From the NCBI GenBank assembly GCA_016219145.1, contig JACRCG010000188.1, forward strand, positions 1 to 36,498: DNA of 36,498 nucleotides, read 5' to 3'. The translations under genes were made by a program, and so were the position numbers. Each line of letters opens with the position of its first letter. The first letter of the stretch is position 1. The notes under the pieces were generated by a model that was not told the origin of the DNA, ran no database searches, and saw only the letters and a program-made list of their open reading frames with translations. Shown here one piece after another: positions 12,164 to 34,165 of the stretch. The DNA comes from Deltaproteobacteria bacterium (GTDB lineage: Bacteria > Desulfobacterota > Desulfuromonadia > Geobacterales > Pseudopelobacteraceae).

Positions 12164-12185
12164 GATAGTTTCCCTGTAAATAAGA

Positions 12186-12255
12186 GTTCGTGGTTCGTGG
12201 TTCAAGGTTCGAGGTTCGGTGTTCAACCAGAAACCCTGAACTCTGAACCCTGAAC
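12186..12255. repeat. Ten in-register 7-nt units forming an inverted array between gltB and gltD
   Basis: GTTCGTG GTTCGTG GTTCAAG GTTCGAG GTTCGGT GTTCAAC CAGAAAC CCTGAAC TCTGAAC CCTGAAC. Confidence 0.9.
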
Positions 12256-12260
12256 CGCTT

Positions 12261-15200
12261 TCAATGCCCGACCATATGCGAGTTTTCCTCAAAAGCCGCA
12301 GCCAGGGCATCATCGCCGCTCAAGCCGGCCGCCTTGGCCCTCTCCAGCGCCTGCAATACCCGCTTGTAATCCATCGGCAATACTTTTACAAATCGTGAGC
12401 GGCTGTTTTCCCAGCTGATCAGCAGCATCTTCGCCCTCGAACTCCCGGTGCATTCGGCATGTTTTTCAAGCATCGCCCGGAGAGCATCCGAGTCAGCCTC
12501 GTCAAGCTGCTCCAGACCGACCATCTCGGTATTGCATCGAGCGGCAAAATCACCGTCCTCGTCGTACACGTAGGCGATTCCGCCACTCATTCCGGCAGCG
12601 AAGTTGCGGCCGGTCCGGCCGAGGATTGCCACTGTGCCGCCGGTCATGTACTCGCAACCATGATCGCCAACCCCTTCCACAACAGCGTTGACACCCGAGT
12701 TGCGCACGCAGAAACGCTCGCCGGCCAGGCCGTTGATATAGGCAGTTCCGCTGGTGGCACCATAGAATGCCACATTGCCCACGATGATATTATCCTCGGC
12801 CTTGAAAGTTGATCCCTTGGGCGGATAGACCATGATCGAACCGCCGCTCAGCCCTTTGCCCAGATAGTCATTGGCATCGCCCGACAATTTCATCGTTATG
12901 CCGCGCGGTATGAAGGCCCCGAAACTCTGTCCGGCCGATCCGTTGAAAGTCAGGCTGACCGTGTCGTCCGGCAGACCCGCCGCACCGTGGCTGCGGGTAA
13001 TTTCGTTGCCCAGGATCGTTCCGACAACGCGATCAACATTGGTAATCGGCAGCTCGGCAGAGACCTTTTCGCCCCGTTCGATGGCAGGCCGGCAAAGATC
13101 CAGCAGCCTGGTTATGTCGATAGACTTTTCCAGGCCGTGATCCTGCTGTTCCGTGTTGTAGCGCCCTACATTCAGGCCGACTTTAGGCTGATGAAGGATG
13201 TTGGAGAAGTCGAGACCCTGCGCTTTCCAATGCTCGATGGCCTTATTGGCTTCCAGCACATCACAGCGTCCGACCATTTCATTCAGGGTGCGGAAACCGA
13301 GCATTGCCATGATTTCTCGAAGCTCTTCCGCAACAAAACGCATGAAGTTAACGACATACTCAGGCTTGCCGCTGAAATTCTTGCGCAGTTCCGGATCCTG
13401 GGTCGCCACGCCGGTCGGACAGGTGTTGCTGTGACAGACCCGCATCATGACGCACCCCAGCGTCACCAGCGGCGCGGTGGCAAAACCGAACTCCTCGGCC
13501 CCCAGCAGGGCGGCAATAGCAACGTCCCGGCCGGTTTTGAGCTGACCGTCGGCTTCGATAATGATCCGGCTGCGCAGGTTGTTCAAGAGCAGGGTCTGGT
13601 GCGTCTCGGCCAGGCCGAGCTCCCAGGGGAGGCCGGCATGCTTGATGCTGGAGATCGGAGAAGCTCCGGTGCCGCCGTCATAGCCGCTGATCAGAACAAC
13701 ATCGGCGTGAGCCTTGGCAACCCCGGCCGCAATTGTGCCGACACCGACTTCTGACACCAGTTTGACGCTGATACGGGCCCGGCGGTTGGCGTTTTTCAGA
13801 TCGTGGATCAGTTCAGCCAGATCCTCGATCGAGTAGATGTCGTGGTGCGGCGGCGGCGATACCAGCCCGACCCCCGGTGTGGTGTGGCGGGTCTTGGCAA
13901 TCCAGGGGTAGACCTTGTGACCGGGCAGTTCGCCCCCTTCGCCAGGTTTGGCCCCCTGCGCCATCTTGATCTGCAATTCGCCGGCATTTGTCAGATATTC
14001 ACTGGTAACGCCAAAGCGCCCCGAAGCAACCTGCTTGATGACGCTGTTCTTGGAATCGCCCTGTTCGTTGGTCCAGGTGAAGCGTTCCGGATCCTCGCCC
14101 CCTTCACCGGTATTTGATCTTCCGCCGATGCGGTTCATCGCGATCGCCAGCGCCTCATGCGCCTCCTTGCTGATCGAGCCGTACGACATGGCGCCGGTCT
14201 TGAAGCGCTTCATGATCGATTCAGCCGGTTCAACCTCCTCCAGCGGCACGGAGGGCATGTTGTCCTTGAAGTCCAGCAGACCGCGCAGCGTGTAATGCCG
14301 CTCGCTCTGTTCGTCGATCAGGGTGGAGAAAGCCTTGAACTCCTTGTAATCGCCGGTGCGGGTCGCCTTCTGGAGCGAGGTGATCGTCAGCGGATTGTAC
14401 TGATGCTCTTCGCCGTCCTTGCGCCACTGGTAGACGCCGCCCGGCGCCAGTGCGACTTCGGCGGCAACCCTGACCGGATAGGCCCGGGCATGCCGCTCCA
14501 TCAATTCCCGGGCGATGCCGTCAATATCAGTTCCGCCGATGCGTGACGGAGTCCAGGTGAAATAGCGGTCAATGACACTCTGGTGCAGGCCGAGCGCCTC
14601 GAATATCTGGGCGCCGCGATAACTCTGCACGGTGGAAATCCCCATCTTGGCCATGGTTTTGACCACACCCTTGATAGAGGCTTTGATAAAGTTCTTGACC
14701 GCTTTCTTGTGATCCAGATCAGGAAGCATACCCTGCAAAATCATGTCATCCAGCGTCTCAAAGGCCAGATAGGGATTGATGGCGTTGACGCCGTAGCCGA
14801 GCAGCACCGCAAAGTGGTGTACTTCGCGAGGTTCGCCGGACTCAAGAATCAGCGAGACCCTGGTGCGTGTGCCGCTGCTTACCAGATGGTGGTGCAGCCC
14901 GGAAACCGCCAGCAGGGCCGGGATAGCGGCATGATCCTTATCCACGCCCCGGTCGGAGAGAATCAGGATGTTGCTGCCGGAACTTATTGCGACGTCAGCT
15001 GATGCGAATACCGTTTCCAATCCTCGCTCCATCGCTGCTGCACCACGATTCACCGGGAATAGCAGTGAAAGCGTAGAGGCTTTAAATCCCGGACGTTCAA
15101 TCTGGCGCAGTTTCTCAAGCTCCTGATTACAGAGCAGGGGATGGTCAAGCTTGATCATCCTGGCATTTGCAGCAGTCGGCTCAAGCAGGTTGCCTTCGGA

Positions 15201-16865
15201 GCCGATTAAAGTGGTGGTAGAAGTGACCATCTCTTCGCGAATCGGATCGATCGGCGGATTGGTAACTTGGGCGAAGAGCTGTTTGAAGTAATTGTAAAGC
15301 AGCTGATTCTGATTTGAGAGTACCGCCAGCGGCGTGTCTGTTCCCATGGAGCCCAGCGGCTGGATACCGTCACGGGCCATCGGCCCCAGAACAACCCGCT
15401 GGTCCTCGAATGTATAGCCGAAGGCCTGTTGGCGCTGGACCAGAGTGCTGCGGTCCGGCATATGCACATCGGAAGTGTTTGGCAGATCTTCCAGCCGGAT
15501 ATGGTTCTCCTTCAGCCACTCTGCATACGGGTTGGCGGCAGCCAGTTCCCGCTTGATCTCCTCGTCCGGCACAATCCGTCCCTGCTCGGTATCAACCAGG
15601 AACATCTGTCCCGGCTGAAGGCGTCCCTTGTGCAGGACACGTTCCGGTTCAATGTGCAGGACGCCGGCCTCTGAGGCCATGATGACCAGATCATCGCTGG
15701 TTATATAATAGCGGGAAGGGCGCAGTCCGTTTCGATCCAGCACCGCGCCGATACTTCTGCCGTCGGTAAAGGCAATTGCAGCAGGGCCGTCCCAAGGTTC
15801 CATCAGACAAGAGTGATACTCGTAGAAGGATCTCTTCTCGTCACTTATGTCCGTTCGATTTTCCCATGGTTCCGGCACCATCATCATGACAGCGTGCGGC
15901 AAAGACAGGCCACTCATAACCATCAGTTCAAGACAATTGTCAAACATGGCAGAGTCCGAGCCCCTGGTATTGATAATCGGCAGAACCTTTTTCATGTCAT
16001 CACCAAAAAGAGTGCTTGCAAAATGGTTCTGGCGGGCATTCATCCAGTTGACGTTGCCGCGCAGGGTGTTGATCTCGCCGTTATGAGCCAGGTAGTGATA
16101 GGGATGGGCACGATCCCAGCTGGGAAAGGTATTGGTGGAAAATCGTGAGTGTACCAGGGCGATGGCGCTCTCCATGGCCGGGTCGCGCAGCTCGGGATAA
16201 TACTGGTCAACCTGCACCGGCATCAGCATGCCTTTGTATATAATGGTACGGGTAGATATGCTGCAGACGTACCATTGGTCATCAACTCCGGCGCGCCGGA
16301 TTTCATTGGTCGCCCTCTGATTGATGACATACAGCTTGCGGTTGAAAGCATTCTCATCGATGCAGTCGATCGGGCGCTTGAAGAACATCTGCCGCACCAT
16401 CGGCTCCCCTTCCCAGGCGGTATTCCCCAGAGAAGAGTTGTCGGTCGGGACGTTGCGCCAGCCAAGCAGCTCAACTCCCTCTTCGACCAGGATTTTTTCC
16501 AGAATATGGCGGGCAGCGTTACGCTCGGTTGCTTTCTGAGAGGTAAACACCATCCCTACGCCGTAATGAAACGGTTCTGGCAGATAAATGCCAAGCGGCA
16601 CACAGACTGCGCGGAGAAAACTATCCGGCATCTGCATCAGGATACCGGCTCCATCACCGGTATTAGGTTCACATCCGCAGGCGCCGCGATGATCAAGATT
16701 GGTCAGCACGGTCAACGCCTGGCGGACAATTTCGTGCGACTTTTTCCCTTTTACGTTCACGACAAACCCTATACCGCAGGCATCGTGCTCAAACTGTGGA
16801 TCGTAAAGTCCCTGTTTTTCGGGCGCTCGGTTGTTTTTCATGTGATTGCCTTTTATCTGTTTCAT
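12261..16865 (-). CDS. gltB: Glutamate synthase large subunit
   Basis: N-terminal [11 protein letters not shown] amidotransferase motif; FMN/Fe-S region [28 protein letters not shown]-terminal domain. Alternative start ATG 16841 has a better ribosome-binding site (AAAGG). Confidence 0.97.
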
Positions 16866-18727: not shown

Positions 18728-19519
18728 TTATTGCGCCGTCCAACCTCCATCAATCGGAATAGCCGTTCCGGTAATCTGATCGGCCGCCGGGGAGCAGAGA
18801 AAGATCGCCAGTTGGCCAAGCTGTTCGATCGATACAAACTGCTTTGAAGGCTGTTTCTCGGCCAGCAGATCCCGCCCGCCCGCCTCGATATCAACTCCCA
18901 GCGCCTGAGCCCTGGCGATGATCTGCGGCTCGATCAGTTCCGTTCTGGTCCAGCCGGGGCAGATGGCATTGCTGGTTATACCGGAGCCGGCTGTTTCCAG
19001 CGCCACAACCTTGGTCAGGCCGACCAGACCATGCTTGGCGGAAACGTAGGCGGCCTTGTTTGCAGAAGCAACCAGACCGTGAACCGAGGCGATATTGATG
19101 ATCCGGCCCCAGCCGCTCTGGCGCATATATGGTATGGCATGGTGGATCGTGTAAAAGCTGGAAGAAAGATTGATGGCGATGATGGTTGCCCAGCGCTCGG
19201 GAGGAAACGCCTCAATCGGGGAAGTATGCTGGACTCCGGCGTTATTTACCAGAATATCTATGCCGCCGAAATTTACAGTGCTGGTTTTTACCAGCGCGGC
19301 GATTTCGTCCGGTCTGGTCATGTCGGCGCCGTGGAATCCGGCCCTGATCCCGAATTCGGCTTCGAGCTCAGAACGGACAGCTTCTATTTTAGCCGGGTCG
19401 CCCAGGCCGTTCAGCATGATGTTGCAGCCCTGCCCGGCCAGGGAGCGGGCGATTCCTAGCCCGATGCCGCTGGTTGAGCCGGTTACAAGTGCGGTTTTTC
19501 CTTTTAACATCTCGATCAT
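18728..19519 (-). CDS. Short-chain dehydrogenase, 3-hydroxybutyrate dehydrogenase-like
   Basis: TGSTSGIGLGIA cofactor motif; NNAGVQHTSPIEAFPPERW; YVSAKHGLVGLTKVVALETA; resembles BDH1-type bacterial enzymes. Confidence 0.88.
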   Translation of the reverse strand: MIEMLKGKTALVTGSTSGIGLGIARSLAGQGCNIMLNGLGDPAKIEAVRSELEAEFGIRAGFHGADMTRPDEIAALVKTSTVNFGGIDILVNNAGVQHTSPIEAFPPERWATIIAINLSSSFYTIHHAIPYMRQSGWGRIINIASVHGLVASANKAAYVSAKHGLVGLTKVVALETAGSGITSNAICPGWTRTELIEPQIIARAQALGVDIEAGGRDLLAEKQPSKQFVSIEQLGQLAIFLCSPAADQITGTAIPIDGGWTAQ

Positions 19520-19548: not shown

Positions 19549-20733
19549 TTAGATATCACGCTCAACCACCATCGCAATACCCTGCCCGCCGCCGATACAG
19601 AGAGCTGCCAGGCCTCGCCGCAGACCGCTCCGCTCCATCTCGTGCAGCAGCGTCACCAGTATCCGGGCTCCGCTGGCGCCGACCGGATGCCCCAGGGCTA
19701 TGGCGCCCCCATTCACATTAACCTTGCGGCTGTCCAGACGCAGCTCGCGGATTACCGCCAGAGACTGCACTGCAAATGCTTCATTAAGCTCAACCAGATC
19801 GATTTCTTCAAGCTTCAGGCCTGCCTTGGAGACAGCCTTGCGGATCGCCTCAACCGGTCCCATCCCCATGATGCGCGGATCGACTCCGACGGAGCCCCAT
19901 CCGGTGATTCTGGCCAACGGCCGGCAGCCGGCCTTTATAGCTGCTCCCTGCTCCATCAGAAGAACTGCGGCCGCGCCGTCATTGATGCCGGACGAGTTTC
20001 CGGCGGTAACAACGCCATCTTTCTTAAAGGCCGCCCGCAATTTAGCCAGGCTCTCCATGCTGGTGTCGCCGCGCGGGTATTCATCTTCCGTTACTACAAC
20101 TTCTTCACCGCGTTTACCCGGAACCGGCACAGGAACTGTCTCACGACTGAATACTCCCTCTTCAAGCGCCTTGGCTGCCTTCTGCTGTGACTGCAGGGCA
20201 AAGGCGTCGGCCTCCTCGCGGGATATCCGGTACTGATCGGCAATGTTTTCGGCGGTGATCCCCATGTGGATATCGTGAAAGGCGTCTGTCAGGGCATCTT
20301 TGAGAAGGGTGTCCTCCAGGACGCCGTTCCCCATCCGGTAGCCGCTGCGGGCCTTGTCCAGCAGATAGGGCGCCCGGCTCATGCTCTCCATCCCGCCGGC
20401 CACGATCATATCCGCTTCTCCGGCGGCAATTGCCAGTGTAGCAAGTGCAATGCTCTTCAGCCCGGAACCGCACAGCTTGTTAACGGTGTAGGCCGGCACG
20501 TGTTCCGGGATTCCTGCTCTGATTGCGGCCTGACGGGCAGGATTCTGGCCGCAGCCGGCCTGCAGAATCTGTCCCATGATGACCTCTTCGACGCACTCTG
20601 CGGATAGCCCGGCCCGTTGGATAACTTCGTTGATAACCAGTTGGCCCAGCCCGGACGCCGGAACAGAGGCCAGCGAGCCGCCGAAAGAGCCGATCGGAGT
20701 CCGGGCGGCCGATACAATTACAACGTTGCGCAT
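19549..20733 (-). CDS. Acetyl-CoA C-acetyltransferase (thiolase)
   Basis: NKLCGSGLKSIALA active-site Cys, NVNGGAIALGHPVGASGAR, CIGGGQGIA. Confidence 0.95.
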   Translation of the reverse strand: MRNVVIVSAARTPIGSFGGSLASVPASGLGQLVINEVIQRAGLSAECVEEVIMGQILQAGCGQNPARQAAIRAGIPEHVPAYTVNKLCGSGLKSIALATLAIAAGEADMIVAGGMESMSRAPYLLDKARSGYRMGNGVLEDTLLKDALTDAFHDIHMGITAENIADQYRISREEADAFALQSQQKAAKALEEGVFSRETVPVPVPGKRGEEVVVTEDEYPRGDTSMESLAKLRAAFKKDGVVTAGNSSGINDGAAAVLLMEQGAAIKAGCRPLARITGWGSVGVDPRIMGMGPVEAIRKAVSKAGLKLEEIDLVELNEAFAVQSLAVIRELRLDSRKVNVNGGAIALGHPVGASGARILVTLLHEMERSGLRRGLAALCIGGGQGIAMVVERDI

Positions 20734-20920: not shown

Positions 20921-21553
20921 TTACGCCATAATCAGAACAGGCTCAGTGCAGGCCTGAATATCCTCCGGCGTGTAGCCCGGAGCGGTTTCAACCAGACGCA
21001 ATCCCTGCGGGGTGACATCCAGTACGGCCCGGTCGGTTATGATCCGGTTGATTACCCCCTTGCCGGTTAAAGGCAAGGTGCAACTGTTCAGTATCTTGGT
21101 TTCACCATGTTTGTTGCAATGCTCCATCAGCACGACAATTTTTTTGGCGCCATGCACCAGGTCCATCGCGCCCCCCATTCCCTTGACCATTTTGCCTGGG
21201 ATGACCCAGTTGGCCAGGTCGCCCGCAGCGGAGGCTTCCATCCCCCCCAGAATTGCCAGGTCAATATGCCCGCCGCGAATCATGGCGAACGATTCGGCGC
21301 TGCTGAAGGTACTGGAACCGGGGATCATGGTGATGGTCTCCTTGCCGGCATTGATCAGATCCGGGTCAAGTTCTTCTTCGGCCGGGTAGGGGCCGATGCC
21401 GAGCAGCCCGTTCTCGGACTGCAGCACCACCGTTTTCCCTGCTGGAATGTAGTTGGCTACCAGGGTCGGCATGCCGATGCCCAGGTTGACATAATATCCG
21501 TCTTCTATTTCACTGGCGGCCCGTTGGGCCATCTCTTCTCTCGTAAGTGCCAT
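20921..21553 (-). CDS. 3-oxoacid CoA-transferase subunit B
   Basis: [33 protein letters not shown] with catalytic Glu (SENG). Confidence 0.93.
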
Positions 21554-21566: not shown

Positions 21567-22259
21567 CTATTTCCGCACCGTGCGGCGCTCAATCCGTTTT
21601 TCGTGGCCGGTGCAGGCAATGATGCGCTGCACATAAACGCTGGGTGTATGAATCTGATCCGGGTCAAGTTCGCCGGTTTCCACCAGCTCTTCGACCTCGG
21701 CAATCGTAATCCGCCCGGCGGCGGCCATCATCGGATTGAAATTGCGAGCGGTCTTGCGATAGACCAGATTACCGAAGCGATCACCCTTCCAGGCTTTGAT
21801 AATCGAATAATCCGCTCTCAAACCGCTTTCAAGCAGATATTCCTTGCCGTCAAAGATGCGCGTCTCGCGGCCATCGGCGATCGGGGTGCCAACCCCGGCG
21901 GGGGTGTAGAAAGCCGGAATCCCGGCGCCACCGGCCCTGATCCGCTCCGCCAGGGTTCCTTGCGGCACCAGCTCCACCTCCAGTTCTCCCGCCAGATATT
22001 GGCGCTCGAACTCTTTGTTCTCGCCGACATAAGAGGAAACCATCTTCCTGATCTGCCTGTTCTGGAGCAGGATGCCGAGACCCCACTCGTCCACGCCACA
22101 GTTGTTGGAGATCACGGTCAGATTTTTTACCCCCGACTCGCGGATCCCCTGGATCAGTTTTTCCGGAATCCCGACCAGCCCGAAGCCACCGGCCATGATA
22201 CTGGCACCGTCGCCGATCCCTTCCAGTGCTTCTTGAATGCTTGTACAGACTACTGCCAT
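21567..22259 (-). CDS. 3-oxoacid CoA-transferase subunit A
   Basis: GASIMAGGFGLVGIPEKLIQGIRESGVKNLTVISNNCGVDEWGLG. Track extension to 22331 reads through a repeat; ATG at 22259 preferred. Confidence 0.93.
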   Translation of the reverse strand: MAVVCTSIQEALEGIGDGASIMAGGFGLVGIPEKLIQGIRESGVKNLTVISNNCGVDEWGLGILLQNRQIRKMVSSYVGENKEFERQYLAGELEVELVPQGTLAERIRAGGAGIPAFYTPAGVGTPIADGRETRIFDGKEYLLESGLRADYSIIKAWKGDRFGNLVYRKTARNFNPMMAAAGRITIAEVEELVETGELDPDQIHTPSVYVQRIIACTGHEKRIERRTVRK

Positions 22260-22286
22260 GTTATTGCCTCCAGTTTTTATAAAATA

Positions 22287-22457
22287 GAACGCGGATGACG
22301 CGGATTGAGCGGATTTACACAGATTTAACACAAGAAGAATTTATGGCAATGCCCATTTACACTCGTCTGTTTCCGGTTTTTTATTGTTTTAACAATATGT
22401 GTCAGGGTTAAAGATTAAAATCCGTCTTTATCCGCTCAATCCGCTTCATCCGCGTTC
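22287..22457. repeat. Inverted repeat, 28-nt arms built of GCGGAT-type 9-10-nt units, between livM and the CoA-transferase
   Basis: GAACGCGGATGACGCGGATTGAGCGGAT (22287-22314) and ATCCGCTCAATCCGCTTCATCCGCGTTC (22430-22457), one mismatch. Confidence 0.92.
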
Positions 22458-22490: not shown

Positions 22491-23432
22491 TCAGAGCGAC
22501 TTTTTCAGCAGCCTGCCAAGCTCTCCGACAAACCCGCGCCGGAACAGCAGCACGCAGACGACAAACGTAACACCGATAATGACCGTTATCCAGGAGCCGA
22601 CCGAACTCAGTTCAGACTGGAGTGTCACCACGGTAAATGCCCCTGCCAGCGGGCCCAGCACCGTACCTACCCCGCCCAGCAGGGTCATCAGTACGACCTC
22701 TCCCGAACTGTGCCAGCTGACATCCGTCAGCGATGCCAGCTGGAAAACCAGTGACTTCAGTGATCCGGCCATTCCGGAGAGCGCCGCAGAGATCACGAAA
22801 GCCATCAGCTTGAAGCGGTCTACATTGTATCCCAGTGAAACGGCGCGCGGTTCATTCTCTCTGATCGCCTTCAGCACCTGTCCAAAGGGGGAATTGATGG
22901 CCCGGTGGATCATCCAGAAGCCCAGGCAGAACATGATGAAAACAAAGTAATACAGGTTGAGCGGCAGCGGACTCGTCCCGACTGTGAAGGTCTGGTTCAG
23001 ATCGATCAGCCCGAAAAGATTGCCGCGCGGAATGCCTTGCAGCCCGTCCTCGCCACCGGTAAAGGGGGCCTTGAGCGCCACAAAGTATACTATCTGGGCC
23101 AGAGCCAGAGTAACCATGGCAAAGTAGATCCCCTGGCGCCGGATGGCCAGGCTGCCGACGACATAGCCCAGCAGGGCGGCGAAGAGCGTGCCTCCCAGAA
23201 CTCCCAATTCAGGTGTGAGTCCGCTGACCTTGACCAGATGCCCGGTGATATATGAGGCGCCCCCGAAAAAGGCGGCGTGCCCGAAAGAGAGCAGTCCGGT
23301 GTAACCGAGCAACAGATTGAAAGCGCAGGCAAACAGCGCGAAGCAGAGCAGCTTCATCATGAAGATCGGGTAAACGATAAAAGGCGCCAGCAGGCCGAGA
23401 ATTATCAGGACGATCCAGACGGTCTTGTTCAT
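22491..23432 (-). CDS. livM: Branched-chain amino acid-type ABC transporter permease LivM
   Basis: LLGYTGLLSFGHAAFFGGASYITGHL; multiple TM helices; LLGGVGTVLGPLAGA. Confidence 0.92.
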   Translation of the reverse strand: MNKTVWIVLIILGLLAPFIVYPIFMMKLLCFALFACAFNLLLGYTGLLSFGHAAFFGGASYITGHLVKVSGLTPELGVLGGTLFAALLGYVVGSLAIRRQGIYFAMVTLALAQIVYFVALKAPFTGGEDGLQGIPRGNLFGLIDLNQTFTVGTSPLPLNLYYFVFIMFCLGFWMIHRAINSPFGQVLKAIRENEPRAVSLGYNVDRFKLMAFVISAALSGMAGSLKSLVFQLASLTDVSWHSSGEVVLMTLLGGVGTVLGPLAGAFTVVTLQSELSSVGSWITVIIGVTFVVCVLLFRRGFVGELGRLLKKSL

Positions 23433-24338
23433 TTACGACTCCCTGCCGAACAGGCCGGCCGGCTTTACAAGCAGCACGATGACCATGATCAGAAAAATTA
23501 CCGTACTGGAAGCCGGCGCGTAAACCACCTTGGTGAACCCCTCCACCATTCCGAGCAGCAAACCGGTGACAATCGACCCCATGATCGAGCCCATACCCCC
23601 GATGACCACTACGGCAAACACCACAATAATCATCTCGGCCCCCATGACCGGACTGACCGAGTAGATCGGCGCGGCCAGTACACCGGCAAAGGCTGCCAGG
23701 GCTACGCCATAGCCGTAGGTCAGAGTAATCATCAGCGGGACATTAACGCCGAAGGCCTTCACCAGCTCCGGGTTTTCGGTGCCGGCCCGCAAGTATGAGC
23801 CAAGTTTTGTCCTCTCAATCACAAACCAGGTACCGAAACAGACTACCAGAGAAACGGCGATCGCCCAAAGCCGGTATTTCGGAAACATCATGAAGCCCAG
23901 ATTGACCGCGCCGTTCAATATTTCCGGCTTGGCCTCGTAAGGATCGCCGGAGACGTTAAAATAATTGGTGAAGACCCCTTGAATGATCAGAGCCAGGCCG
24001 AAGGTAAGCAGCAGGCCGTACAAGTGGTCAAACTTGTACAATCTGCTCAGCATTGTTTTCTCGATTACTATGCCGATTGCTCCAACCACCAGCGGCGCTA
24101 CTATCAGGGCGGCCCAGTAATTGAGATGGAAATCCGGCATGCCGATCAGAACTCCCAGCTTGGTGTAGCCCAGGAGCGCCACGTAGGCTCCCAGCATATA
24201 CAGTGCTCCGTGGGCAAAGTTGACAATGTTCAGCAGGCCGAAAATCACCGCCAGACCAAGACTCAAGATGGCGTAAAAAACGCCGTTGTTGAGACCCAGC
24301 ATGACCTGCGACATAACCGTCTGAAAGGATATTTCCAT
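23433..24338 (-). CDS. livH: Branched-chain amino acid-type ABC transporter permease LivH
   Basis: LGLNNGVFYAILSLGLAVIFGLLNIVNFAHGALYMLGAY; GGMGSIMGSIVTG. Confidence 0.93.
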   Translation of the reverse strand: MEISFQTVMSQVMLGLNNGVFYAILSLGLAVIFGLLNIVNFAHGALYMLGAYVALLGYTKLGVLIGMPDFHLNYWAALIVAPLVVGAIGIVIEKTMLSRLYKFDHLYGLLLTFGLALIIQGVFTNYFNVSGDPYEAKPEILNGAVNLGFMMFPKYRLWAIAVSLVVCFGTWFVIERTKLGSYLRAGTENPELVKAFGVNVPLMITLTYGYGVALAAFAGVLAAPIYSVSPVMGAEMIIVVFAVVVIGGMGSIMGSIVTGLLLGMVEGFTKVVYAPASSTVIFLIMVIVLLVKPAGLFGRES

Positions 24339-24372: not shown

Positions 24373-24434
24373 GTAGGGGCGATCCTTGTGATCGCCCCTT
24401 GTCGGATGTGGGCGAATACAAGATTCGCCCCTAC
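24373..24434. repeat. REP-like paired-hairpin intergenic element between livK and livH
   Basis: GTAGGGGCGATCCTTGTGATCGCCCC...GGGCGAATACAAGATTCGCCCCTAC; two hairpins in inverted orientation. Confidence 0.93.
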
Positions 24435-25648
24435 TTCTTAACCAATTCGCAGGTGCTTTCGGATAGAGGCATGAAGGCATCGGCGGCCGGAACTGTCTTG
24501 ACTATCTTGAGCAGATCCCACTCACCCTTTGATTCGGCAGGTTTCTTGACTTCCATCAGGTACATGTCGTGTACCATGCGCCCGTCAGCTCTGATCTTGC
24601 CGTTTACTGCAAAGAAATCGCTGATATTCATGGATTTGAGCTTCGCCATGACCGCGTCGGAATCGTCGCTGCCGGCAGCCTTGATGGCTTTCAGGTAATT
24701 CATTGTGGCTGAATAGGCGCCGGCCTGATCCATGGTCGGCATGGCTTTGTGGATGGCGTAGTAACGGTTGGAGAAATCGCGGGTCGCCTTGTCACGATCC
24801 CAGTAGAAGCCGGATGTATACTGCATTCCCTGCGCTACGTTCAGGCCGAGACTCTTTATGTCGGTATCAAATATCAACAGGCCGACCAGTTTCTGGCCTT
24901 TCTTGTCGATGCCGAACTCTCTGGCCTGTTTTATGGCGTTGATGGTGTTGTCGCCCGCATTGGCCAGGCCTATTATCTGGGCTCCGGATGACTGGGCCTG
25001 AAGCAGGTACGATGAAAAATCGGTGGTGGCGAGAGGGTGACGTACCGATCCGAGTATTTTCCCGCCCAGCTTGGTTACAAATTTAGAAGTATTCCCCTCC
25101 AGAGAGTGGCCGAAGGCGTAGTCCGCAGTCATGAAGTACCAGCTCTTGCCGCCGCTGGGGACAACAGCTTCCGCTGTAACCTTACCCAGGGCGTAGGTGT
25201 CATAGACATAGTGGATACCATAAGGAGTGCAGGCCTTGTTGGTCAGGTCAGTACTGGCAGCGCCGGTGTTCATGGTGATTTTCTTCTTTTCTCCGGCCAG
25301 TTTCTGAACTGCCAGGGCGCAGCCGGAATTCAGCAGGCCGGTGATCATATCCACTTTTTCATTGTCAAACCACTCTCTGGCCTTGGCCGAGGCGATGTCG
25401 GCCTTGTTCTGATGGTCGGCGCCAATAACCTGGATCGGTTTGCCGAGCACCTTGCCGCCGAAATCCTTGACAGCCATCTCGACAGCGACCTGAGTCCCTT
25501 TGCCACCCAGGGCGGAATATGGCCCCGACATGTCGGTCAACACCCCGATTTTTACTACATTGTCAGAAATACCGGCCGCGATGGCCAATGTGCCTGACAG
25601 TATTACAACTGCCGCTGATGCAACCACTTGAAGCAGAACTTTTTTCAT
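24431..25648 (-). CDS. livK: ABC transporter periplasmic substrate-binding protein, LivK-type (type I PBP)
   Basis: Signal peptide MKKVLLQVVASAAVVILSGTLAIA; IGVLTDMSGPYSALGGKGTQVAVEMAVKDFGGKVLGKPIQVIGADHQNKAD. Confidence 0.9.
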   Translation of the reverse strand: MKKVLLQVVASAAVVILSGTLAIAAGISDNVVKIGVLTDMSGPYSALGGKGTQVAVEMAVKDFGGKVLGKPIQVIGADHQNKADIASAKAREWFDNEKVDMITGLLNSGCALAVQKLAGEKKKITMNTGAASTDLTNKACTPYGIHYVYDTYALGKVTAEAVVPSGGKSWYFMTADYAFGHSLEGNTSKFVTKLGGKILGSVRHPLATTDFSSYLLQAQSSGAQIIGLANAGDNTINAIKQAREFGIDKKGQKLVGLLIFDTDIKSLGLNVAQGMQYTSGFYWDRDKATRDFSNRYYAIHKAMPTMDQAGAYSATMNYLKAIKAAGSDDSDAVMAKLKSMNISDFFAVNGKIRADGRMVHDMYLMEVKKPAESKGEWDLLKIVKTVPAADAFMPLSESTCELVKK

Positions 25649-25674: not shown

Positions 25675-26391
25675 CTATACGCCAAGGTATCGGTTAAGTT
25701 TCTCCATGCTGGAGCCAAGCTCATCTCTGGTTATCATTTCCGCGATGGCACCGTGATCGATGACATAATGGCGGTCGGCCAGGTTGGCGGCGAAATGAAA
25801 ATTCTGCTCCACCAGAATTATTGTAAGTCCCTTCTCCTTCAGCTGTCCGATTACCCGTCTCAGTGTCTGAACAATTACCGGCGCCAGCCCCTCGGTAATT
25901 TCATCCAGCAGCAGCAGCCGTGCTCCGGTTCGCAGAATCCGCGCCATGGCCAGCATCTGCTGCTCGCCGCCCGACAGACGGGTCCCCATGCTGTTTTTCC
26001 GCTCCAGCAGATTGGGAAACATGTCGTAGATTTCGGGAAGTGTCATGCCGCCGCTTTTTACAACCGGCGGCAGCAACAGGTTTTCCTCGACCGTAAGGCT
26101 GGAAAAAATGCCGCGTTCTTCCGGACAGTATCCGATTCCCAGATGGGCGATCCTGTGGGTCGGCATCCTGACCGTTTCCACTCCGTTGATCATGATTGAG
26201 CCGCTGCGGCGGCCGACCAGCCCGATGATTGATTTCAGGATTGTGGTCCGGCCGGCTCCGTTTCTTCCCAGCAAGGTGACCACCTCACCGACTCCGACCT
26301 TCAGGTCGATGCCGTGCAGGATGTGGGATTCTCCGTAAAAAGCATGCAGGTCAGTTATCCGCAGCATCTCGTTATGTACAGATTCAGTCAT
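25675..26391 (-). CDS. livF: ABC transporter ATP-binding protein LivF, with Walker A Lys replaced by Arg
   Basis: LLGRNGAGRTTILKSIIGL; LSGGEQQMLAMARIL; LLLLDEITEGLAP. ATG 26391 overlaps the livG stop and has GGGGAG upstream. Confidence 0.92.
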   Translation of the reverse strand: MTESVHNEMLRITDLHAFYGESHILHGIDLKVGVGEVVTLLGRNGAGRTTILKSIIGLVGRRSGSIMINGVETVRMPTHRIAHLGIGYCPEERGIFSSLTVEENLLLPPVVKSGGMTLPEIYDMFPNLLERKNSMGTRLSGGEQQMLAMARILRTGARLLLLDEITEGLAPVIVQTLRRVIGQLKEKGLTIILVEQNFHFAANLADRHYVIDHGAIAEMITRDELGSSMEKLNRYLGV

Positions 26392-27136
26392 GAGCACTCC
26401 CCATATACGCTTCCAGCACCTGCGGATTCTGTGAAACCTCTGCGTAGGGCCCTTCCGTAAGAATAGCGCCGCGCTGCAAAACCGTTATCCGGTCCGCCAG
26501 AGTTGCGACGACCTTCAAATTATGCTCAACCATCAAGATGGTTCGATTGGCGGAGACTTTCTTGACCAGCGCCGTTATTTTGTCAACATCCTCAACTCCC
26601 ATACCCTGAGTCGGCTCATCCAGAAGCATCAGCTCCGGGTCCAAAGCCAGCGTCGTGGCTATTTCCAGGGCGCGTTTGCGTCCATAGGCCAGCTCGCCGG
26701 TGATCTGGTCGGCATACTCCGCCAGGCCGACTGATTCAAGCAGTTCCATGGCCTGACCGTCCAGTTGTTGCAGGATTTTATCCGACTTCCAGAAGTGGTA
26801 GGAGACACCCAGTTTGCGCTGCAATGCCAGGCGGACATTCTCGCGCGGTGTCAGGTTTGGAAAAACGGCCGATATCTGGAATGAGCGGATCACGCCGCGC
26901 AGTGCGATGTCGGCCGGCTTCTCTCCGGTAATATCGGTGCCGTTGAAGTGAATTGTCCCTTTGGTGGGCGTCAGAAATTTTGTCAACAGGTTGAAAACGG
27001 TGGTTTTTCCGGCTCCATTCGGCCCGATCAGGGCATGGATATGGCCGCGCTCTATTTTCAGATTAACGGCTGACACCGCTGTAAAGCCCTTGAAATCTTT
27101 AGTGAGATCGTTTGTTTCCAGAATATGATCTGACAT
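26384..27136 (-). CDS. livG: ABC transporter ATP-binding protein LivG
   Basis: LIGPNGAGKTTVFNLLTKFLTPTKG; ELAYGRKRALEIATTLAL; LMLLDEPTQGM. Confidence 0.93.
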   Translation of the reverse strand: MSDHILETNDLTKDFKGFTAVSAVNLKIERGHIHALIGPNGAGKTTVFNLLTKFLTPTKGTIHFNGTDITGEKPADIALRGVIRSFQISAVFPNLTPRENVRLALQRKLGVSYHFWKSDKILQQLDGQAMELLESVGLAEYADQITGELAYGRKRALEIATTLALDPELMLLDEPTQGMGVEDVDKITALVKKVSANRTILMVEHNLKVVATLADRITVLQRGAILTEGPYAEVSQNPQVLEAYMGSAHD

Positions 27137-27203: not shown

Positions 27204-27324
27204 ATCACACAAAGCTCACCAAGATAATCAGGAGATTATCAAAGCGAATAATAGAACCCTGCGGGTAACGGCTTAAACCCACATAAGCTTCTGATTTCTT
27301 TGTGTTCTTTGTGCCTTTGTGAGA
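27204..27324. repeat. Degenerate inverted element in the livG leader (ACACAAAG/CACAAAG-type units)
   Basis: TCACACAAAGCTCACCAAGATAATCAG on the plus strand versus TCACAAAGGCACAAAGAACACAAAGAAATCAG on the minus strand. Confidence 0.5.
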
Positions 27325-27366
27325 GCCAACTGCTTTTTCAGGATAAAACATGTTTTTGTTGTAGTA

Positions 27367-27381
27367 GCAATTCCAGTGCCA
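27367..27381 (-). promoter_or_regulatory. Sigma-54 (-24/-12) promoter upstream of livG
   Basis: Minus strand TGGCACT-GGAA-TTGC versus consensus TGGCACG-N4-TTGC (one mismatch). Confidence 0.8.
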
Positions 27382-27487
27382 TACCTGCTGAATGCAAGTT
27401 CGTATTCTGCTAACCTCTCGTTTAATAAGATTAAATTGCTACAGACAATTGCAAAACAGGGTAATGGAATAGGTGTGCTGACAGGGC

Positions 27488-27509
27488 ATATTCCAGGATA
27501 TTGGAATAT
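27488..27509. promoter_or_regulatory. Upstream activator site 1
   Basis: ATATTCCA-GGATAT-TGGAATAT, perfect 8-nt arms. Confidence 0.7.
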
Positions 27510-27604
27510 ATTGCTGGTTGTGTCAGATGTAATGTTATGGGGCCAAAGAAAGCGCTGAAATATAACATATTGAACGAACGTGCTATTTTGGTATCAGCGA
27601 GGGC

Positions 27605-27626
27605 GTATTCCAAAATATGGGAATAT
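27605..27626. promoter_or_regulatory. Upstream activator site 2
   Basis: GTATTCCA-AAATAT-GGGAATAT, same ATTCCA-N6-TGGAAT architecture with one mismatch in the core. Confidence 0.65.
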
Positions 27627-27644
27627 ATTCCAGAATTGTGGAAG
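27627..27644. promoter_or_regulatory. Upstream activator site 3
   Basis: ATTCCA-GAATTG-TGGAAG, same architecture, centre 20 nt from site 2. Confidence 0.65.
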
Positions 27645-27650
27645 ACCTGG

Positions 27651-29078
27651 TTACTTGCCGATATCGTACTGGCCCGCCTTGGCGTACAGCGATGACTTGC
27701 TGATTCCCAGTCTGGCGGCGGCAGCCTGTTTATCCCCTTTTTCCTCGCGGATTGCGGAACGGATCGCCTCTTCTTCGGCCAGCTGGGTGATGTACTTCAG
27801 GCTGCGGCAAATATCGGGTGACGACGTACCGACTCCCTTGACCAGCGCAAAGGGGAGGTCCCGTTTTGTAATCGTATTGCCGGTTTTGACATACAGGGCC
27901 TGTTCGAGCACGTTACGAAGCTCTCTTACATTGCCGGGCCAGCCGTAGCTTTTGAGTATTTCGGCCGCATCCGGCTCAACCCCGTCCACCGGAATGCCGG
28001 TCTCTTTTTCCAGCTGCCTGAGGTGAAAACGGATCAGAAGCAAAATATCGTCCGGACGGTTGCGCAGCGGCGGAATATCCAGCATGACCACGTTAAGCCG
28101 GTAATACAGATCATGGCGGAACATCCCCTGTTTTGCCAGCGTTTCAAGATCGCGATTGGAGGCGGCGATGATGCGCACATCGACAAGCTCGGGCTGTTCC
28201 GCGCCGACCGGCTCGATCTCCTTTTCCTGCAAAACCCTCAAGAGTTTGACCTGCATGGTCAGCGGCAGTTCGCTGATCTCGTCCAGAAAGATCGTTCCTC
28301 CGTCAGCCAGCGCGAACTTCCCTTTTTTCCCTTTTTTCAGCGCGCCGGTAAAGGAGCCCTCCCGATAGCCGAACAGTTCCGATTCGAAGAGGGTTTCCGG
28401 TATTGCCGCGCAGTTGACCTTGATAAACGGCCCAAGCGCCCGGTGGCTGGCGTTGTGAATGGCATGAGCAAAAAGTTCCTTGCCGGTTCCGCTCTCTCCT
28501 TTCAGCAGCACGGTGGTGGTACTCATCGCCACCTTGCGGCCCAGCTCCTTGACCCACTCCAGCTCTTTGCTGATTCCGACTATGTGGTCGAATGAGTATT
28601 TGGCGCTCAGGTGATTGCTGAGCTCTCTTTTGTAAAATTCGAGTTCGGTTTTCAGTTTTTTGAAGTTTTCGGTGAAGGTAAACAGATCCTCAATATTCTG
28701 GAACATGATCTTGCCGACCACCGCCACAACTTTCCCGTTTTCGAAGATCGGAATCCGGCTGCAGATCATCTCGTGCCCGCCGATCTTCTGCAGCTGGGCG
28801 ATCTCGGCCACCCCGCTTTTGGCCACCAGGTGCATGCGGGTGTTCTGGATCACTTCGGTGACATGCCTGCCGACCAGCTTGTCGATAGTCGTATCAAGGA
28901 AACGGGCATACGCTTCATTGATCTTCAGGATATAACCTTCGGCGTCGGTGATAAGCAGCCCTTCGTAGGCGTGCCCCAAGGCCTCCTCCAGCATGGTCTG
29001 CCCTTTTTCGGCCAGCACGGCGCGCTTTTTGAGCGCCAGCAGCAGGTTATGAACCCAGCCCTGTCTGTGTATGATCAT
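27651..29078 (-). CDS. PAS-domain sigma-54-dependent transcriptional activator (enhancer-binding protein)
   Basis: PAS segment YEGLLITDAEGYILKINEAYARFLDTT; GESGTGKELFAHAIH; GSFTGA; C-terminal HTH DKQAAAARLGISKSSLYAKAGQYDIGK. ATG 29078 after GGAGAC. Confidence 0.93.
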   Translation of the reverse strand: MIIHRQGWVHNLLLALKKRAVLAEKGQTMLEEALGHAYEGLLITDAEGYILKINEAYARFLDTTIDKLVGRHVTEVIQNTRMHLVAKSGVAEIAQLQKIGGHEMICSRIPIFENGKVVAVVGKIMFQNIEDLFTFTENFKKLKTELEFYKRELSNHLSAKYSFDHIVGISKELEWVKELGRKVAMSTTTVLLKGESGTGKELFAHAIHNASHRALGPFIKVNCAAIPETLFESELFGYREGSFTGALKKGKKGKFALADGGTIFLDEISELPLTMQVKLLRVLQEKEIEPVGAEQPELVDVRIIAASNRDLETLAKQGMFRHDLYYRLNVVMLDIPPLRNRPDDILLLIRFHLRQLEKETGIPVDGVEPDAAEILKSYGWPGNVRELRNVLEQALYVKTGNTITKRDLPFALVKGVGTSSPDICRSLKYITQLAEEEAIRSAIREEKGDKQAAAARLGISKSSLYAKAGQYDIGK

Positions 29079-29097: not shown

Positions 29098-29847
29098 TCA
29101 TGCCTCGCCTGCCTCAAACAGCACATTCCGTTTTAATCCGGAGCGATGCAGGACATATTTGAACACAGTGGCAAGCACTCCCAAACCATACTGTACACTT
29201 GGCCAGAAGCTGATCGAAGATGCCTCGGGGAAATACTTTGTGGGACAACTGATCTCGCCGATTCGGAAGCCAAAGGCAACTGTCTGCACCAGCATCTCAT
29301 TATCAAAGACAAAATTGTCGGAGTTCGTTTGCAGCGGTAATGTCTCAAGCACCTTACGGCTGAAGGCGCGGTAACCGGTGTGATATTCAGAGAGCTTGGC
29401 ACCCAGGAACAGGTTTTCAAAAGCGGTCAGGAAACGGTTGGCAACGTATTTATAGCGCGGCATTCCGCCTTTCAGCGCACCGCCACCCAGTATGCGGGAG
29501 CCGAGAACGACGTCATAATGACCGGAGGTGATCATGCAGGCCATGGCGGTCACAAGTCGCGGTGAATACTGGTAATCAGGATGAACCATGACGATTATGT
29601 CGGCTCCCAGTTCCAGCGCCGCCCGGTAACAGGTTTTCTGGTTGGCGCCATAGCCGCCGTTGACCGGATGGATAATGGTCCTGATACCAAGCTCTTCCGC
29701 CACTCGGGCCGTGTTGTCGCTGGAAGCGTCATCAACCAGCAAGACCGCATCGACATACTCATGCGGAAGCTCCGCATAGGTCTGACGCAGAGTTTTTTCG
29801 GCATTGTACGCCGGCATGACGACAACCAGTTTTTGTCCTGATATCAT
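29098..29847 (-). CDS. Family 2 glycosyltransferase (dolichyl-phosphate mannosyltransferase-like)
   Basis: [45 protein letters not shown]. Confidence 0.88.
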
Positions 29848-29905
29848 TCAACCCCCGGAAAAAGTATTATCGCATCTGATCTTGCAACTCTTTGGCTGCA
29901 CTCTC

Positions 29906-32900
29906 TCAATGACAGGAACGCGCACACTTGTCCAGCTCCGACTTCAGCCGCTGGGCGGAGAGTACCAGGCTCTCAAGGCGCGCTTCGACTACCTGGGGGA
30001 AGGCGTTGCCGTCACTTTCTATGGCGAGGAAAGGGAGTGGCAGCTCGTTTTTGTTATCAGCCCAGAAAGGGCCGCTGTGGCGGGAAAAATTCTTTTTTTC
30101 ATCAATCAGCCGATGGTTCAGAATTGATTCGGCAATCCGGCAGGGCATGCAGCCGAACGGACCGATGCTGATCACGCCGTGGGTGTCATCGCCCACTTCG
30201 GTCAGGACCGAACTGACCGTCAAAATAGTTTCGCCGCTCAGAGCCGGATTGATAAGGGCTGAGCCGCGTTTCACCAGATCCGCAACATCTATCTCGCAGG
30301 GGTGGTAAAAACCGCTCAACAGCAGGCGCTTCCTGATCTCGGCTTCGTCTTTGCGCATGAATATATTTTTCAGACGAGTATAGAGACGATCTCCAAGAGA
30401 CGATCTGCTGGAATGTCCTTTGAGCACGTTGTAATCGGTGTAGTATATCCATTCCGTAAGCGGGGCGACGCGTGTCAGCACCCCCCGCTCTGCCAGCTGT
30501 TCGACCAGATACTGCCGGGAGAAGCCGTCCCGGCGAACATAAATCTCACCGGTCAGGTTTATCATGATCGCCTCTCCGATCGGATATTTCTTTCCGCATC
30601 GGGCCAGAGCATTCATCTCCTGCTCCAGTACCTCCAAAACCTCCCTGAAGCTGCCGGACTCAAGGCTGGTCATGATGCGCGCCTTGCCCTGCTCGTACAC
30701 CGCCAGCGCCTCAGCCCGATTTACAGCAACAGTCAGTATCCCGGCGTAGACTTCATCCAGCCCGTCGCTGATGCTGAAAGCCTGCCAGACCCGCCGGGTG
30801 AAGACGGTTGACATCCCGCCGTAACCGTTTTCACAGGAGAGGTTCAGCTGGGCAATGTTGCCGATACGGTGCTTTTTGATATAGGAGGACATGAAGATGC
30901 TGTACTGGCCGAACCGGCAGGGACCGTCGGTATCGGGCATGAACAACACCAGCACCTCGTCATCGATCCTATTTTCTTCCAGGTAGCGCAGCAGTGAACC
31001 GGAGGTCAGAAGCAGCGGCAGACATTCCTTGCAGGTGGCTTCTCCCTTGCCGAGCATAAGTTCCTGCTGGCCGGGAGGGGGGAGCGCCTCGGCCCGGATG
31101 CCGATGTAGCGGAATGCAGCCGCCAGCCCCTTGGTGGCGGTATCTCCCATGGATGGGATCAGCACCCGGACTTTCGGATCGGTCAGCTGATATTCTTCTC
31201 CCGAACCGGTGCGGACAGTCATGCCGACTTTATTCATGAGCAGGCGTGCCGGAGAGAAAGGCTCCTCTGCCGGTTTCGGCAGGTTCAATTCCCTGAAGCC
31301 CCTGACAACATCCAGAAAAGCCTCGATGCGGGTATCTACCCCGGCGTCGGCCGTATGGGCATCCAGCTCAAGAGTCAATGACGGTTTCTGCCCCATGGTA
31401 TTACGGAAGTAACCGGTAATGAAGGAGTCCGGCCCACAGCTGAAGTTGGTGATGTAGACGCCGTAGAGGTTTGGTTTGTTGAGGATGAAGTTGGCCGCCT
31501 TTAAAATCCTCTGGCCGGAGGCCCAGTACATCCACCTGTTTTTTTCCGGAGCAGAGTCGGGGATCGGAAGAAAATCGTATGGAATGATTTTGGAGCCGCG
31601 GGTGGCAAACTTGTGCGGAATCCCCATATTGCCATACCTGCTGAAGGCGTTGTATGAGCGTCCGAACAGAACAAAGGCTGTCTCATGCTCTTTCAGTTCA
31701 GCCATGAAACGTCGGCCATGCTCCTTCATCTCGGCCAGCATAGCCAGCAGCACCAGCCAGGCATCGTCAAAGGCGCGCCCTGACTCACGGGTCGAAAAGC
31801 CGAGCTGACGACCGATTCCGGCAAAAGTCTGACGGAGCTTTTTGTGGTTGTCAAAAGTCAGCACCGCCGTAAGCAGTCTTGGCGCTAGCTGGTCATGAAA
31901 GGCCGCTTTCAGATAGTATGGTTCGGCCTGGACAAAGGGGCAGCTGCAGCCGCTCTCACCGCTGTTGTCAATAGTGGAGCTGATAACATGCGGAATGAAC
32001 ACGTAGTCCGGTTTTTTCTGGAGAAGGCTGCTGATCATGCCGTGACTCAAGACCACCGGATAACAGAATGGCGCTCCGGCAGCCTCCAGTCCGCGCTGGT
32101 CAACACAGTCGCCCAGAATCACCTCGGCCCCCAGATTGCTGAAAAAGTGGGCATACAGCGGATAATAGCTGTTGGAAAAGAGCGAAGCGGGGATGCCGAC
32201 CCTGACCCCGCCCTGTTTGACAGCCTTGGGGGCATAGGCGCCAAAGACCAGCTCCTCGTGCAACCGGACCAGATCAAGCTGGTTGGTGTCGAAAACGTTT
32301 TTGGAGCCGATCAGGTTGTAATATTTGTTGCAGGCCCCGCCGAAAGGATAGATTTTCCCCTTGACGGTTATGCGCGCCACCGAACATTTCCGGTCGCATT
32401 TTTCAGCGCCCCCGGCACAGATGAAGGGTTCCCCGTACTGAACCTCTCTGGCCGACAGTTCTGCCAGATCAAAGCGGCCGCGCTGCAAAAGCCCCTTTTC
32501 AATCTTTCTCTGCGCTTCCAGAGCAGCTCCGAAAGCCCCCATCAATCCGGGCTCGGGCGGCACGATGATCTCCTGGCCGCAGAGCTGGGCCATGGCGGCC
32601 GGGACGGCACTGTTGTAGCAGACCCCCCCCTGCATGAAGATCTTCCTCCCTACCGGCCGATTCCCTTTGACCCGGTTCAGGTAGTTCTGGCAGATCGAAT
32701 ACACCAGTCCGGCTACGATGTCTTCGCGCCCGATCCCCTCTTGAACGGCTGTCTTGATATCGCTGCCGATAAAGGCGGCGCACTGGTCATTGAAGTTGGG
32801 GGGCGAGCTGGAGGTAAAGGCGATGTCGGCAATATCCTTGGTCCCGATCCCGAGAGATTCACAACAGGCTTCCTCCAGAAATGAGCCCGTACCGGCCGAG

Positions 32901-34165
32901 CAGGCTTCGTTCATGGCATAATCGCTGGCTACCCGGTTGGTGATATAGGTATACTTGGCGTCCTGACCGCCGATTTCAAAAATGGTCTCCACTTCAGGAT
33001 CAAAATGGATCGCTGCGGTTGCGTGAGCCACAATCTCGTTGATGACCCCCTCGCTTAATGCATGCAGTCCGGCGATCTGGCGTCCGCTGCCGGTCACTCC
33101 CAGGCCGATGATATCGAGGTCGCTCCCCTCCGGCGACTGGGCCAGAATCTGGCGGTAACACTCGCGGCTGGCCCTGATCGGATCGCCGTTGGTTCGCAGA
33201 TAGACACTGGCCGTGATGGCATGATTATCAGCTCTTATAAGCACCGCCTTGGTGGTGGTGCTGCCGACATCGAGGCCGCAGATGTATTCGCCGTCGTAGA
33301 ACTCACCCCGAGGGACCGATTTGAAGGTAACTCCCGAGCCGGATATATTCAGAGCCGGAAAGGTCGGGAAGGAATGATAGGAGGGGGAAACCAGTTTTGA
33401 CGTGTCGGTGATGACGCTGCCATGCTCTTCCGCCCAGAGCAGCGCCCCCAGGGCTTCAAAGTGGAGCGCTTCCGCCGGCACGATGGTATCGGGGTAGGTT
33501 TCGCGCACGTACTCCAGCACCACCCTGTTGCTGCTGACACCACCGACCAGTAATATCTTCCTGGCCTGAGCCTTTTGCAGAAGCTCAACGATCTTGCCGG
33601 CCATCATCCGGCAGAGTCCGGCAGCGACTTCGCCCTTGTCCTTGCCCTTGTTCAGGGCGTGGGTGCAGTCACTCTTGCAGAACACCGAACATCTCCCCGC
33701 CAACGGATAGGAGTCGGAGCCGGCGGCCCGCTCGACCGCCTCTTCGATGGCCAGCTCCATCCTTTTGATCTGCTGAAAAAAGAACTCGCCGGTTCCGGAG
33801 GCACACTTGTTACCGGTGTGAACTCCGCGAATATTACCCTTGCTGTCGAGCATATAGACCAGGAAGGTTTCGCCGCCGGCCGAGACAATGCAGTCGATTC
33901 CCGGATACTGCGCTTGAATCCTGCGGTAGGCAAGTTCAACCGCTTCAGGTTCCGAGACGGTCGGGATGGTGATCAGTTTTCTGAATTTTCTGCCGGTAAA
34001 GCCGATTGCAGCGGGCGGGATGGATGCAAAAAAATCGTTCAAGGCCCCCATGACCCTGCCGTCATGGGTTATTCGCAAACAGGCAACTCCTGTTTCAGTT
34101 CTCTGTGCAATGCTGATTGTGCTGGCGCCAAGACAGACGCCGTATGCTTTTTGCATGGTGGCCAC
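29906..34165 (-). CDS. Large acyl-CoA dehydratase activase fusion (two BcrAD/BadFG-type ASKHA domains, DUF2229-like and HgdB-like C-terminal regions)
   Basis: Two activase modules: GVCLGASTISIA...GNKCASGTGEFF and GLDVGSTTTKAV...FEIGGQDAKYTYI...NEACSAGTGSFLEE; cysteine motif CAGGAEKCDRKC; GIPASLFSNSYYPLYAHFFSNLGAEVILGD. GTG start at 34165 or ATG 34156. Confidence 0.88.
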   Translation of the reverse strand: MATMQKAYGVCLGASTISIAQRTETGVACLRITHDGRVMGALNDFFASIPPAAIGFTGRKFRKLITIPTVSEPEAVELAYRRIQAQYPGIDCIVSAGGETFLVYMLDSKGNIRGVHTGNKCASGTGEFFFQQIKRMELAIEEAVERAAGSDSYPLAGRCSVFCKSDCTHALNKGKDKGEVAAGLCRMMAGKIVELLQKAQARKILLVGGVSSNRVVLEYVRETYPDTIVPAEALHFEALGALLWAEEHGSVITDTSKLVSPSYHSFPTFPALNISGSGVTFKSVPRGEFYDGEYICGLDVGSTTTKAVLIRADNHAITASVYLRTNGDPIRASRECYRQILAQSPEGSDLDIIGLGVTGSGRQIAGLHALSEGVINEIVAHATAAIHFDPEVETIFEIGGQDAKYTYITNRVASDYAMNEACSAGTGSFLEEACCESLGIGTKDIADIAFTSSSPPNFNDQCAAFIGSDIKTAVQEGIGREDIVAGLVYSICQNYLNRVKGNRPVGRKIFMQGGVCYNSAVPAAMAQLCGQEIIVPPEPGLMGAFGAALEAQRKIEKGLLQRGRFDLAELSAREVQYGEPFICAGGAEKCDRKCSVARITVKGKIYPFGGACNKYYNLIGSKNVFDTNQLDLVRLHEELVFGAYAPKAVKQGGVRVGIPASLFSNSYYPLYAHFFSNLGAEVILGDCVDQRGLEAAGAPFCYPVVLSHGMISSLLQKKPDYVFIPHVISSTIDNSGESGCSCPFVQAEPYYLKAAFHDQLAPRLLTAVLTFDNHKKLRQTFAGIGRQLGFSTRESGRAFDDAWLVLLAMLAEMKEHGRRFMAELKEHETAFVLFGRSYNAFSRYGNMGIPHKFATRGSKIIPYDFLPIPDSAPEKNRWMYWASGQRILKAANFILNKPNLYGVYITNFSCGPDSFITGYFRNTMGQKPSLTLELDAHTADAGVDTRIEAFLDVVRGFRELNLPKPAEEPFSPARLLMNKVGMTVRTGSGEEYQLTDPKVRVLIPSMGDTATKGLAAAFRYIGIRAEALPPPGQQELMLGKGEATCKECLPLLLTSGSLLRYLEENRIDDEVLVLFMPDTDGPCRFGQYSIFMSSYIKKHRIGNIAQLNLSCENGYGGMSTVFTRRVWQAFSISDGLDEVYAGILTVAVNRAEALAVYEQGKARIMTSLESGSFREVLEVLEQEMNALARCGKKYPIGEAIMINLTGEIYVRRDGFSRQYLVEQLAERGVLTRVAPLTEWIYYTDYNVLKGHSSRSSLGDRLYTRLKNIFMRKDEAEIRKRLLLSGFYHPCEIDVADLVKRGSALINPALSGETILTVSSVLTEVGDDTHGVISIGPFGCMPCRIAESILNHRLIDEKKNFSRHSGPFWADNKNELPLPFLAIESDGNAFPQVVEARLESLVLSAQRLKSELDKCARSCH

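Follow-up and report, generated by a model that had tools for sequence, protein, structure and literature searches.

The window analysed here, a stretch of 36,498 nucleotides from a Deltaproteobacteria bacterium (contig JACRCG010000188.1), carries on its minus strand a gene for a sigma-54 activator of the PAS-AAA+-Fis-HTH type, a control region with three palindromic sites and a -24/-12 element, and a run of genes for a Liv-type ABC transporter, a 3-oxoacid CoA-transferase, a thiolase and a 3-hydroxybutyrate dehydrogenase. The coordinates of these features are given in Table 1.

Table 1. Features of the activator gene, its control region and the genes that follow it (positions are those of the window)
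Feature	Positions	Strand	Remarks
PAS-AAA+-Fis-HTH sigma-54 activator	27651..29078	-	ORF reaches 29126; conserved start MIIH at 29078; L1 loop GSFTGA, not GAFTGA
Candidate UAS site 1, distal pair member, ATTCCAGAATTGTGGAAG	27627..27644	.	1 mismatch to ATTCCA-N6-TGGAAT; inner dyad TTCCA-N6-TGGAA exact; conserved in orthologs
Candidate UAS site 2, distal pair member, ATTCCAAAATATGGGAAT	27607..27624	.	1 mismatch; 20 bp from site 1; conserved in orthologs
Candidate UAS site 3, proximal single site, ATTCCAGGATATTGGAAT	27490..27507	.	0 mismatches; 117 bp from site 2; conserved in orthologs
Conserved block ATTAC-N3-GTTTTGC, between site 3 and promoter	27451..27465	-	
Putative sigma-54 -24/-12 promoter, TGGCACTGGAATTGC	27367..27381	-	follows site 3 at 125 bp; start predicted near 27355
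Degenerate copy of the conserved TATAAAT-N2-GTTTTAT block, at/after predicted start	27342..27358	-	
livG-type ABC ATPase	26384..27136	-	first operon gene in the window
livF-type ABC ATPase	25675..26397	-	
livK-type periplasmic binding protein	24431..25648	-	Peripla_BP_6
livH-type permease	23433..24338	-	
livM-type permease	22491..23432	-	
3-oxoacid CoA-transferase subunit A (scoA)	21567..22331	-	TIGR02429 over cut-off
3-oxoacid CoA-transferase subunit B (scoB)	20921..21553	-	TIGR02428 over cut-off
Acetyl-CoA acyltransferase/thiolase (thl)	19549..20733	-	TIGR01930 over cut-off
3-hydroxybutyrate dehydrogenase (hbdh)	18728..19519	-	TIGR01963 over cut-off

We placed the likely start of the activator at 29078 rather than 29126, because the ortholog alignment begins at MIIH. 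The protein matched the PAS_9, Sigma54_activat and HTH_8 families, with an AAA+ sigma-54 interaction domain that includes the Walker A motif (PF00158, E 2.4e-68) and a Fis-type HTH (PF02954) at residues 451-483. The Walker A sequence GESGTGKE was found in the window activator and in all aligned orthologs except L040 (GESRTGKE), and ISKSSLY[AS]K was present in every ortholog with a readable C-terminus. The sigma-54 contact loop (28341-28358, minus strand) reads GSFTGA in the window and in its nearest sibling (L074), versus GAFTGA in all other ortholog loci scanned. The genome has a single rpoN-type (sigma-54) gene. The window encodes a second sigma-54 activator (6910-8304), which we rejected as the binder of the palindromes since it belongs to the response regulators, has a kinase of its own and is not linked to the operon in relatives; together with this HAMP/HisKA kinase it occupies positions 6910-9770 and adjoins glutamate synthase genes (10682-16865). 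On its upstream side, the PAS activator stands behind genes for a glycosyltransferase and a BcrAD_BadFG/DUF2229 protein (29098-34165), where many relatives have instead a large opposite-strand gene (family F19, a UvrD/PcrA-like helicase by sequence), and this side has therefore been rearranged.

The genes downstream of the control region read as an operon of the form [usp]-livGFKHM-scoAB-thl-hbdh, in which a universal-stress-protein gene (usp) comes first in most relatives. In the window the usp gene has been lost and the livG leader is long (about 219 nt), partly because it carries a dispersed repeat, TTCTTTGTGTTCTTTGTGCCTTTGTG (27296-27321), at the position where relatives have usp. We counted 36 copies of this repeat (up to 3 mismatches) in the 2.85-Mb genome, against no match for the control. 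No terminator-like sites were found on the minus strand between 18500 and 29950, and gaps of 159 nt before scoA and 187 nt before thl could leave room for further promoters. The initial annotation had suggested that control might extend to the CoA-transferase, thiolase and dehydrogenase genes, and this is supported by the relatives, which keep them behind livM in unchanged order, nearly without gaps in several loci. Judging by its contents, the operon is likely to serve the uptake and degradation of 3-hydroxybutyrate, acetoacetate or another short-chain acid of this kind.

Direct reading of the control region confirmed the three palindromes and the -24/-12 element at the coordinates first proposed for them, as well as the proposal that the palindromes start right behind the activator stop codon (27651-27653), from which site 1 is separated by 6 nt. 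The ATTCCA-N6-TGGAAT architecture said to be shared by all three is exact at site 3, while sites 1 and 2 each depart from it by one base. With up to one mismatch, these are the sole matches to ATTCCA-N6-TGGAAT across the 36.5-kb window, and at least three such dyads within the 288-bp control region occurred in 0 of 5000 dinucleotide shuffles (shuffle mean 0.015). With its members two helical turns apart, the distal pair is well suited to bind two activator dimers cooperatively. The window copy of the system could be weakened, given the GSFTGA loop of the activator and the mismatches in two of the three outer dyads.

The promoter element TGGCACTGGAATTGC is the sole exact TGGCAC-N5-TTGC in the window and has, as had been noted, one mismatch to TGGCACG-N4-TTGC, at position 7. 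Taken alone it is weak evidence, since -24/-12 matches with up to one mismatch are within chance for the window (4 observed vs 3.4 expected). It has GG at -24, GC at -12 and standard spacing between them, and its counterparts in 15 close loci lie 122-125 bp from site 3. As we required both GG and GC when choosing the ortholog promoters, the conservation of these dinucleotides is by construction; this does not apply to the distances, which were not imposed. We rejected a fixed fourth half-site downstream of site 3 because the spacing between the two was too variable among loci, and no conserved IHF site match (up to one mismatch) was found across loci between the candidate UAS and the promoter.

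We searched for orthologs of the activator in 100 related genomes and in a genome collection, with neighbourhoods of up to 20 kb. About 20 orthologs were found (66-94% identity), all in Geobacter-like bacteria, the next group being well apart at about 47% identity or less. In these neighbourhoods the activator is followed by the same operon, mostly with usp first, and sometimes SDR or other genes intervene. Geobacter argillaceus (L054) is one of the relatives that carry the locus. Conservation beside the orthologs, the check proposed in the initial annotation, was strongly positive: 21 of 22 ortholog loci retain the three TTCCA-N6-TGGAA sites together with a -24/-12 element, and the layout is thus real, since it persists in some 20 relatives. 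The distance between sites 1 and 2 is 20 bp, or 21 bp in four loci. Between sites 2 and 3 it is 114-117 bp in the 15 loci with at least 82% identity, where site 3 lies at the above distance from -24; in the six more distant loci the corresponding values are 122-145 bp and 101-135 bp.

It might be supposed that the palindromes arose by chance or belong to a selfish or repeat element, in view of the unremarkable statistics of the -24/-12 match and of the dispersed repeat nearby in the livG leader. Against chance, we counted 60 sites with up to one mismatch across the loci, where shuffles gave a mean of 0.33 and a maximum of 3. Within each genome the sites are, unlike the leader repeat, essentially unique, and they are conserved while their spacers diverge (column identity of 0.96 for half-sites, 0.63 for N6 spacers and 0.54 for all other positions), so that we regard an origin of this kind as refuted, with a negligible probability.

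A further alternative is that the sites mainly have a role in autoregulation or at the activator gene's 3′ end, with the livG operon transcribed from a sigma-70 promoter of its own. The closeness of the sites to the activator stop codon in the window would fit the first part, and one sigma-70-like match (9/12) that overlaps site 3 would fit the second. However, the sites track the operon promoter and not the activator 3′ end: where SDR or convergent genes put 0.9-4.3 kb between sites and activator (L077, L078, L080-L083), the distance to -24/-12 is kept. A search upstream of the activator gene turned up no exact sites, and the number of sigma-70-like matches (8) is what chance would give (7.8 expected). 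This explanation is accordingly very improbable in our view.

The specificity of the motif was examined by genome-wide pattern search. The tandem pair of sites (up to 2 mismatches) occurs in 14 of the 19 ortholog genomes, each time solely at the activator/liv locus, and is absent from 20 genomes of the same genus that lack an activator ortholog; matches to the pair with 3 mismatches at other places in the genomes do not exceed the background. Of the exact ATTCCA-N6-TGGAAT sites in the 19 ortholog genomes, 24 out of 27 are at the activator/liv locus. Given the unique pair and this concentration of exact sites, the activator looks dedicated to one operon. The dyads that accompany the orthologs are missing beside the paralogs: 12 of these (39-46% identity) and 2 distant homologs, all with other recognition helices, had no sites (up to one mismatch) within 1.8 kb of the gene end. 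A recurring near-match, TTCCATTACTGTGGAAAAAAGTGGAATATTGTGGAA, was seen in many congeners (G004:C18, G031:C13, G015:C15, G025:C23 and others); it may represent a DnaA-box cluster at the replication origin.

The transporter follows the same distribution. Orthologs of livK are present in 19 genomes, 18 of which also have the activator, with one exception each way among the 100 genomes (G049 and G038; Fisher p about 1e-17, uncorrected for relatedness). In G049 the liv genes are present, no activator ortholog was found, and no TTCCA-N6-TGGAA occurs upstream. Its liv cluster (L174, about 2750-3058) has a different dyad, TTGATCAATAAATTGATCA, together with TGGAAC-N5-TTGC upstream of livG, possibly a regulator swap. 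In G038, a genome that is 78% complete, the activator is present and no sites were found, which may reflect an assembly gap, because a second, partial activator copy (95% identical) ends at a contig edge. In assembly ES-bin-228 (L065, L040) the two activator copies are 95% identical over 570 bp and one of them is cut by a contig end, which points to either duplication or strain mixture. The proposal that this activator drives livGFKHM is supported by these distributions, as the tandem pair is confined to activator-bearing genomes, stays with the operon promoter and is missing where the liv genes occur without the activator.

The initial annotation had called the control region complete, and this was an overstatement because two more conserved blocks sit in the same promoter. 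One, TTAC-N3-GTTWT, lies downstream of site 3 in the ortholog promoters; the other, TATAAAT-N2-GTTTTAT, lies at the predicted start and is nearly private to the operon promoter (9 of 13 exact matches in 15 genomes). These blocks may form a second operator. They also suggest that another factor may act here, and one could go further and take the palindromes themselves for the operators of some other transcription factor, for example a repressor, with the activator working elsewhere or through other sequences. We find this improbable: the activator is the sole regulator consistently beside the operon, the sites are confined to genomes that bear it and are missing from the liv cluster of G049, and they lie 100-260 bp upstream of -24/-12, the usual range for UAS (PMC6615313). 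Tentatively, and with rather low confidence, we also consider a composite switch, in which a split enhancer (the pair plus the single site, with spacings of about 115 and 123 bp) would be combined with a second factor bound to the two blocks, one upstream of -24 and the other at the start. If this were true, two signals would together gate the uptake of ketone-body-like compounds in relatives of Geobacter.

Very probably, then, the adjacent one-component PAS-AAA+-Fis enhancer-binding protein binds the three sites and activates the sigma-54 promoter of an operon for the uptake and catabolism of short-chain acids of the 3-hydroxybutyrate/acetoacetate kind. Such a layout matches a standard sigma-54 unit, in which a one-component activator binds to upstream UAS, the DNA loops, and ATP drives promoter opening at -24/-12. 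The signal sensed by the PAS domain would be cytoplasmic and most likely a short-chain acid, or its CoA ester, of the 3-hydroxybutyrate or acetoacetate type, and activator dimers would dock through their Fis-type HTH on TTCCA-N6-TGGAA at the distal pair and the proximal site. The docked dimers would then assemble the AAA+ hexamer, which is predicted to loop to the RpoN-RNA polymerase at 27381-27367 and to open the promoter at the expense of ATP. The resulting transcript would span livGFKHM-scoAB-thl-hbdh.

Several known systems resemble this arrangement. In Escherichia coli, AtoC is the sigma-54 activator of the atoDAEB genes, which include a CoA-transferase and a thiolase for acetoacetate and short-chain acids, and it acts from an upstream palindromic UAS (PMC3118216). 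The window system is similar in its predicted sigma-54 control of CoA-transferase and thiolase genes and in its upstream palindromic sites. However, AtoC is a two-component response regulator with the sensor AtoS and its 40-bp inverted palindrome is of another sequence (PMC3118216), whereas the window activator has a PAS domain and no receiver. We rejected an identification as AtoC (NF008469), as the protein scored 340 bits against a cut-off of 714 and had no Response_reg match. The closest functional parallel is HbcR (PA2005) of Pseudomonas, an RpoN-dependent activator of (R)-3-hydroxybutyrate catabolism that is itself activated by (R)-3-hydroxybutyrate (PMC10482368; PMC13390443). The likeness considered here is one of function, and the window operon differs from the HbcR system in that a Liv-type ABC transporter forms its first part.

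The best NCBIfam model by score was that of PrdR, the activator of proline reductase in Clostridia, with 433 bits over residues 40-488, spanning the PAS, AAA+ and HTH parts. Here too an identification (NF041552) was rejected, the score being far below the cut-off of 795 and both the UAS motif and the target genes being different: the UAS of the PrdR group is TGT-N10-12-ACA (PMC6615313), as against TTCCA-N6-TGGAA in the window. Comparative genomics of Clostridiales (PMC6615313) and Desulfovibrio (PMC4641369) describes activator genes beside their target operons and several palindromic UAS, most of them 100-250 bp upstream of -24/-12, a design like that of the window in a different lineage. TTCCA does not appear in the main text of either study, nor TGGAA in the main text of PMC4641369. 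A search of the main text of open-access papers found no description of TTCCA-N6-TGGAA or its variants. The system is of an ordinary, well-known type, while its operator motif is one for which we found no description.

The general understanding of how such systems work is unchanged by these results. They assign a defined operator motif, and a single operon as dedicated target, to one of the PAS-type sigma-54 activators that are numerous and mostly uncharacterised in Geobacter-like bacteria, and the system could find use as a sensor for its ligand. A Liv-type transporter would thereby be tied to catabolism of the 3-hydroxybutyrate/acetoacetate type.
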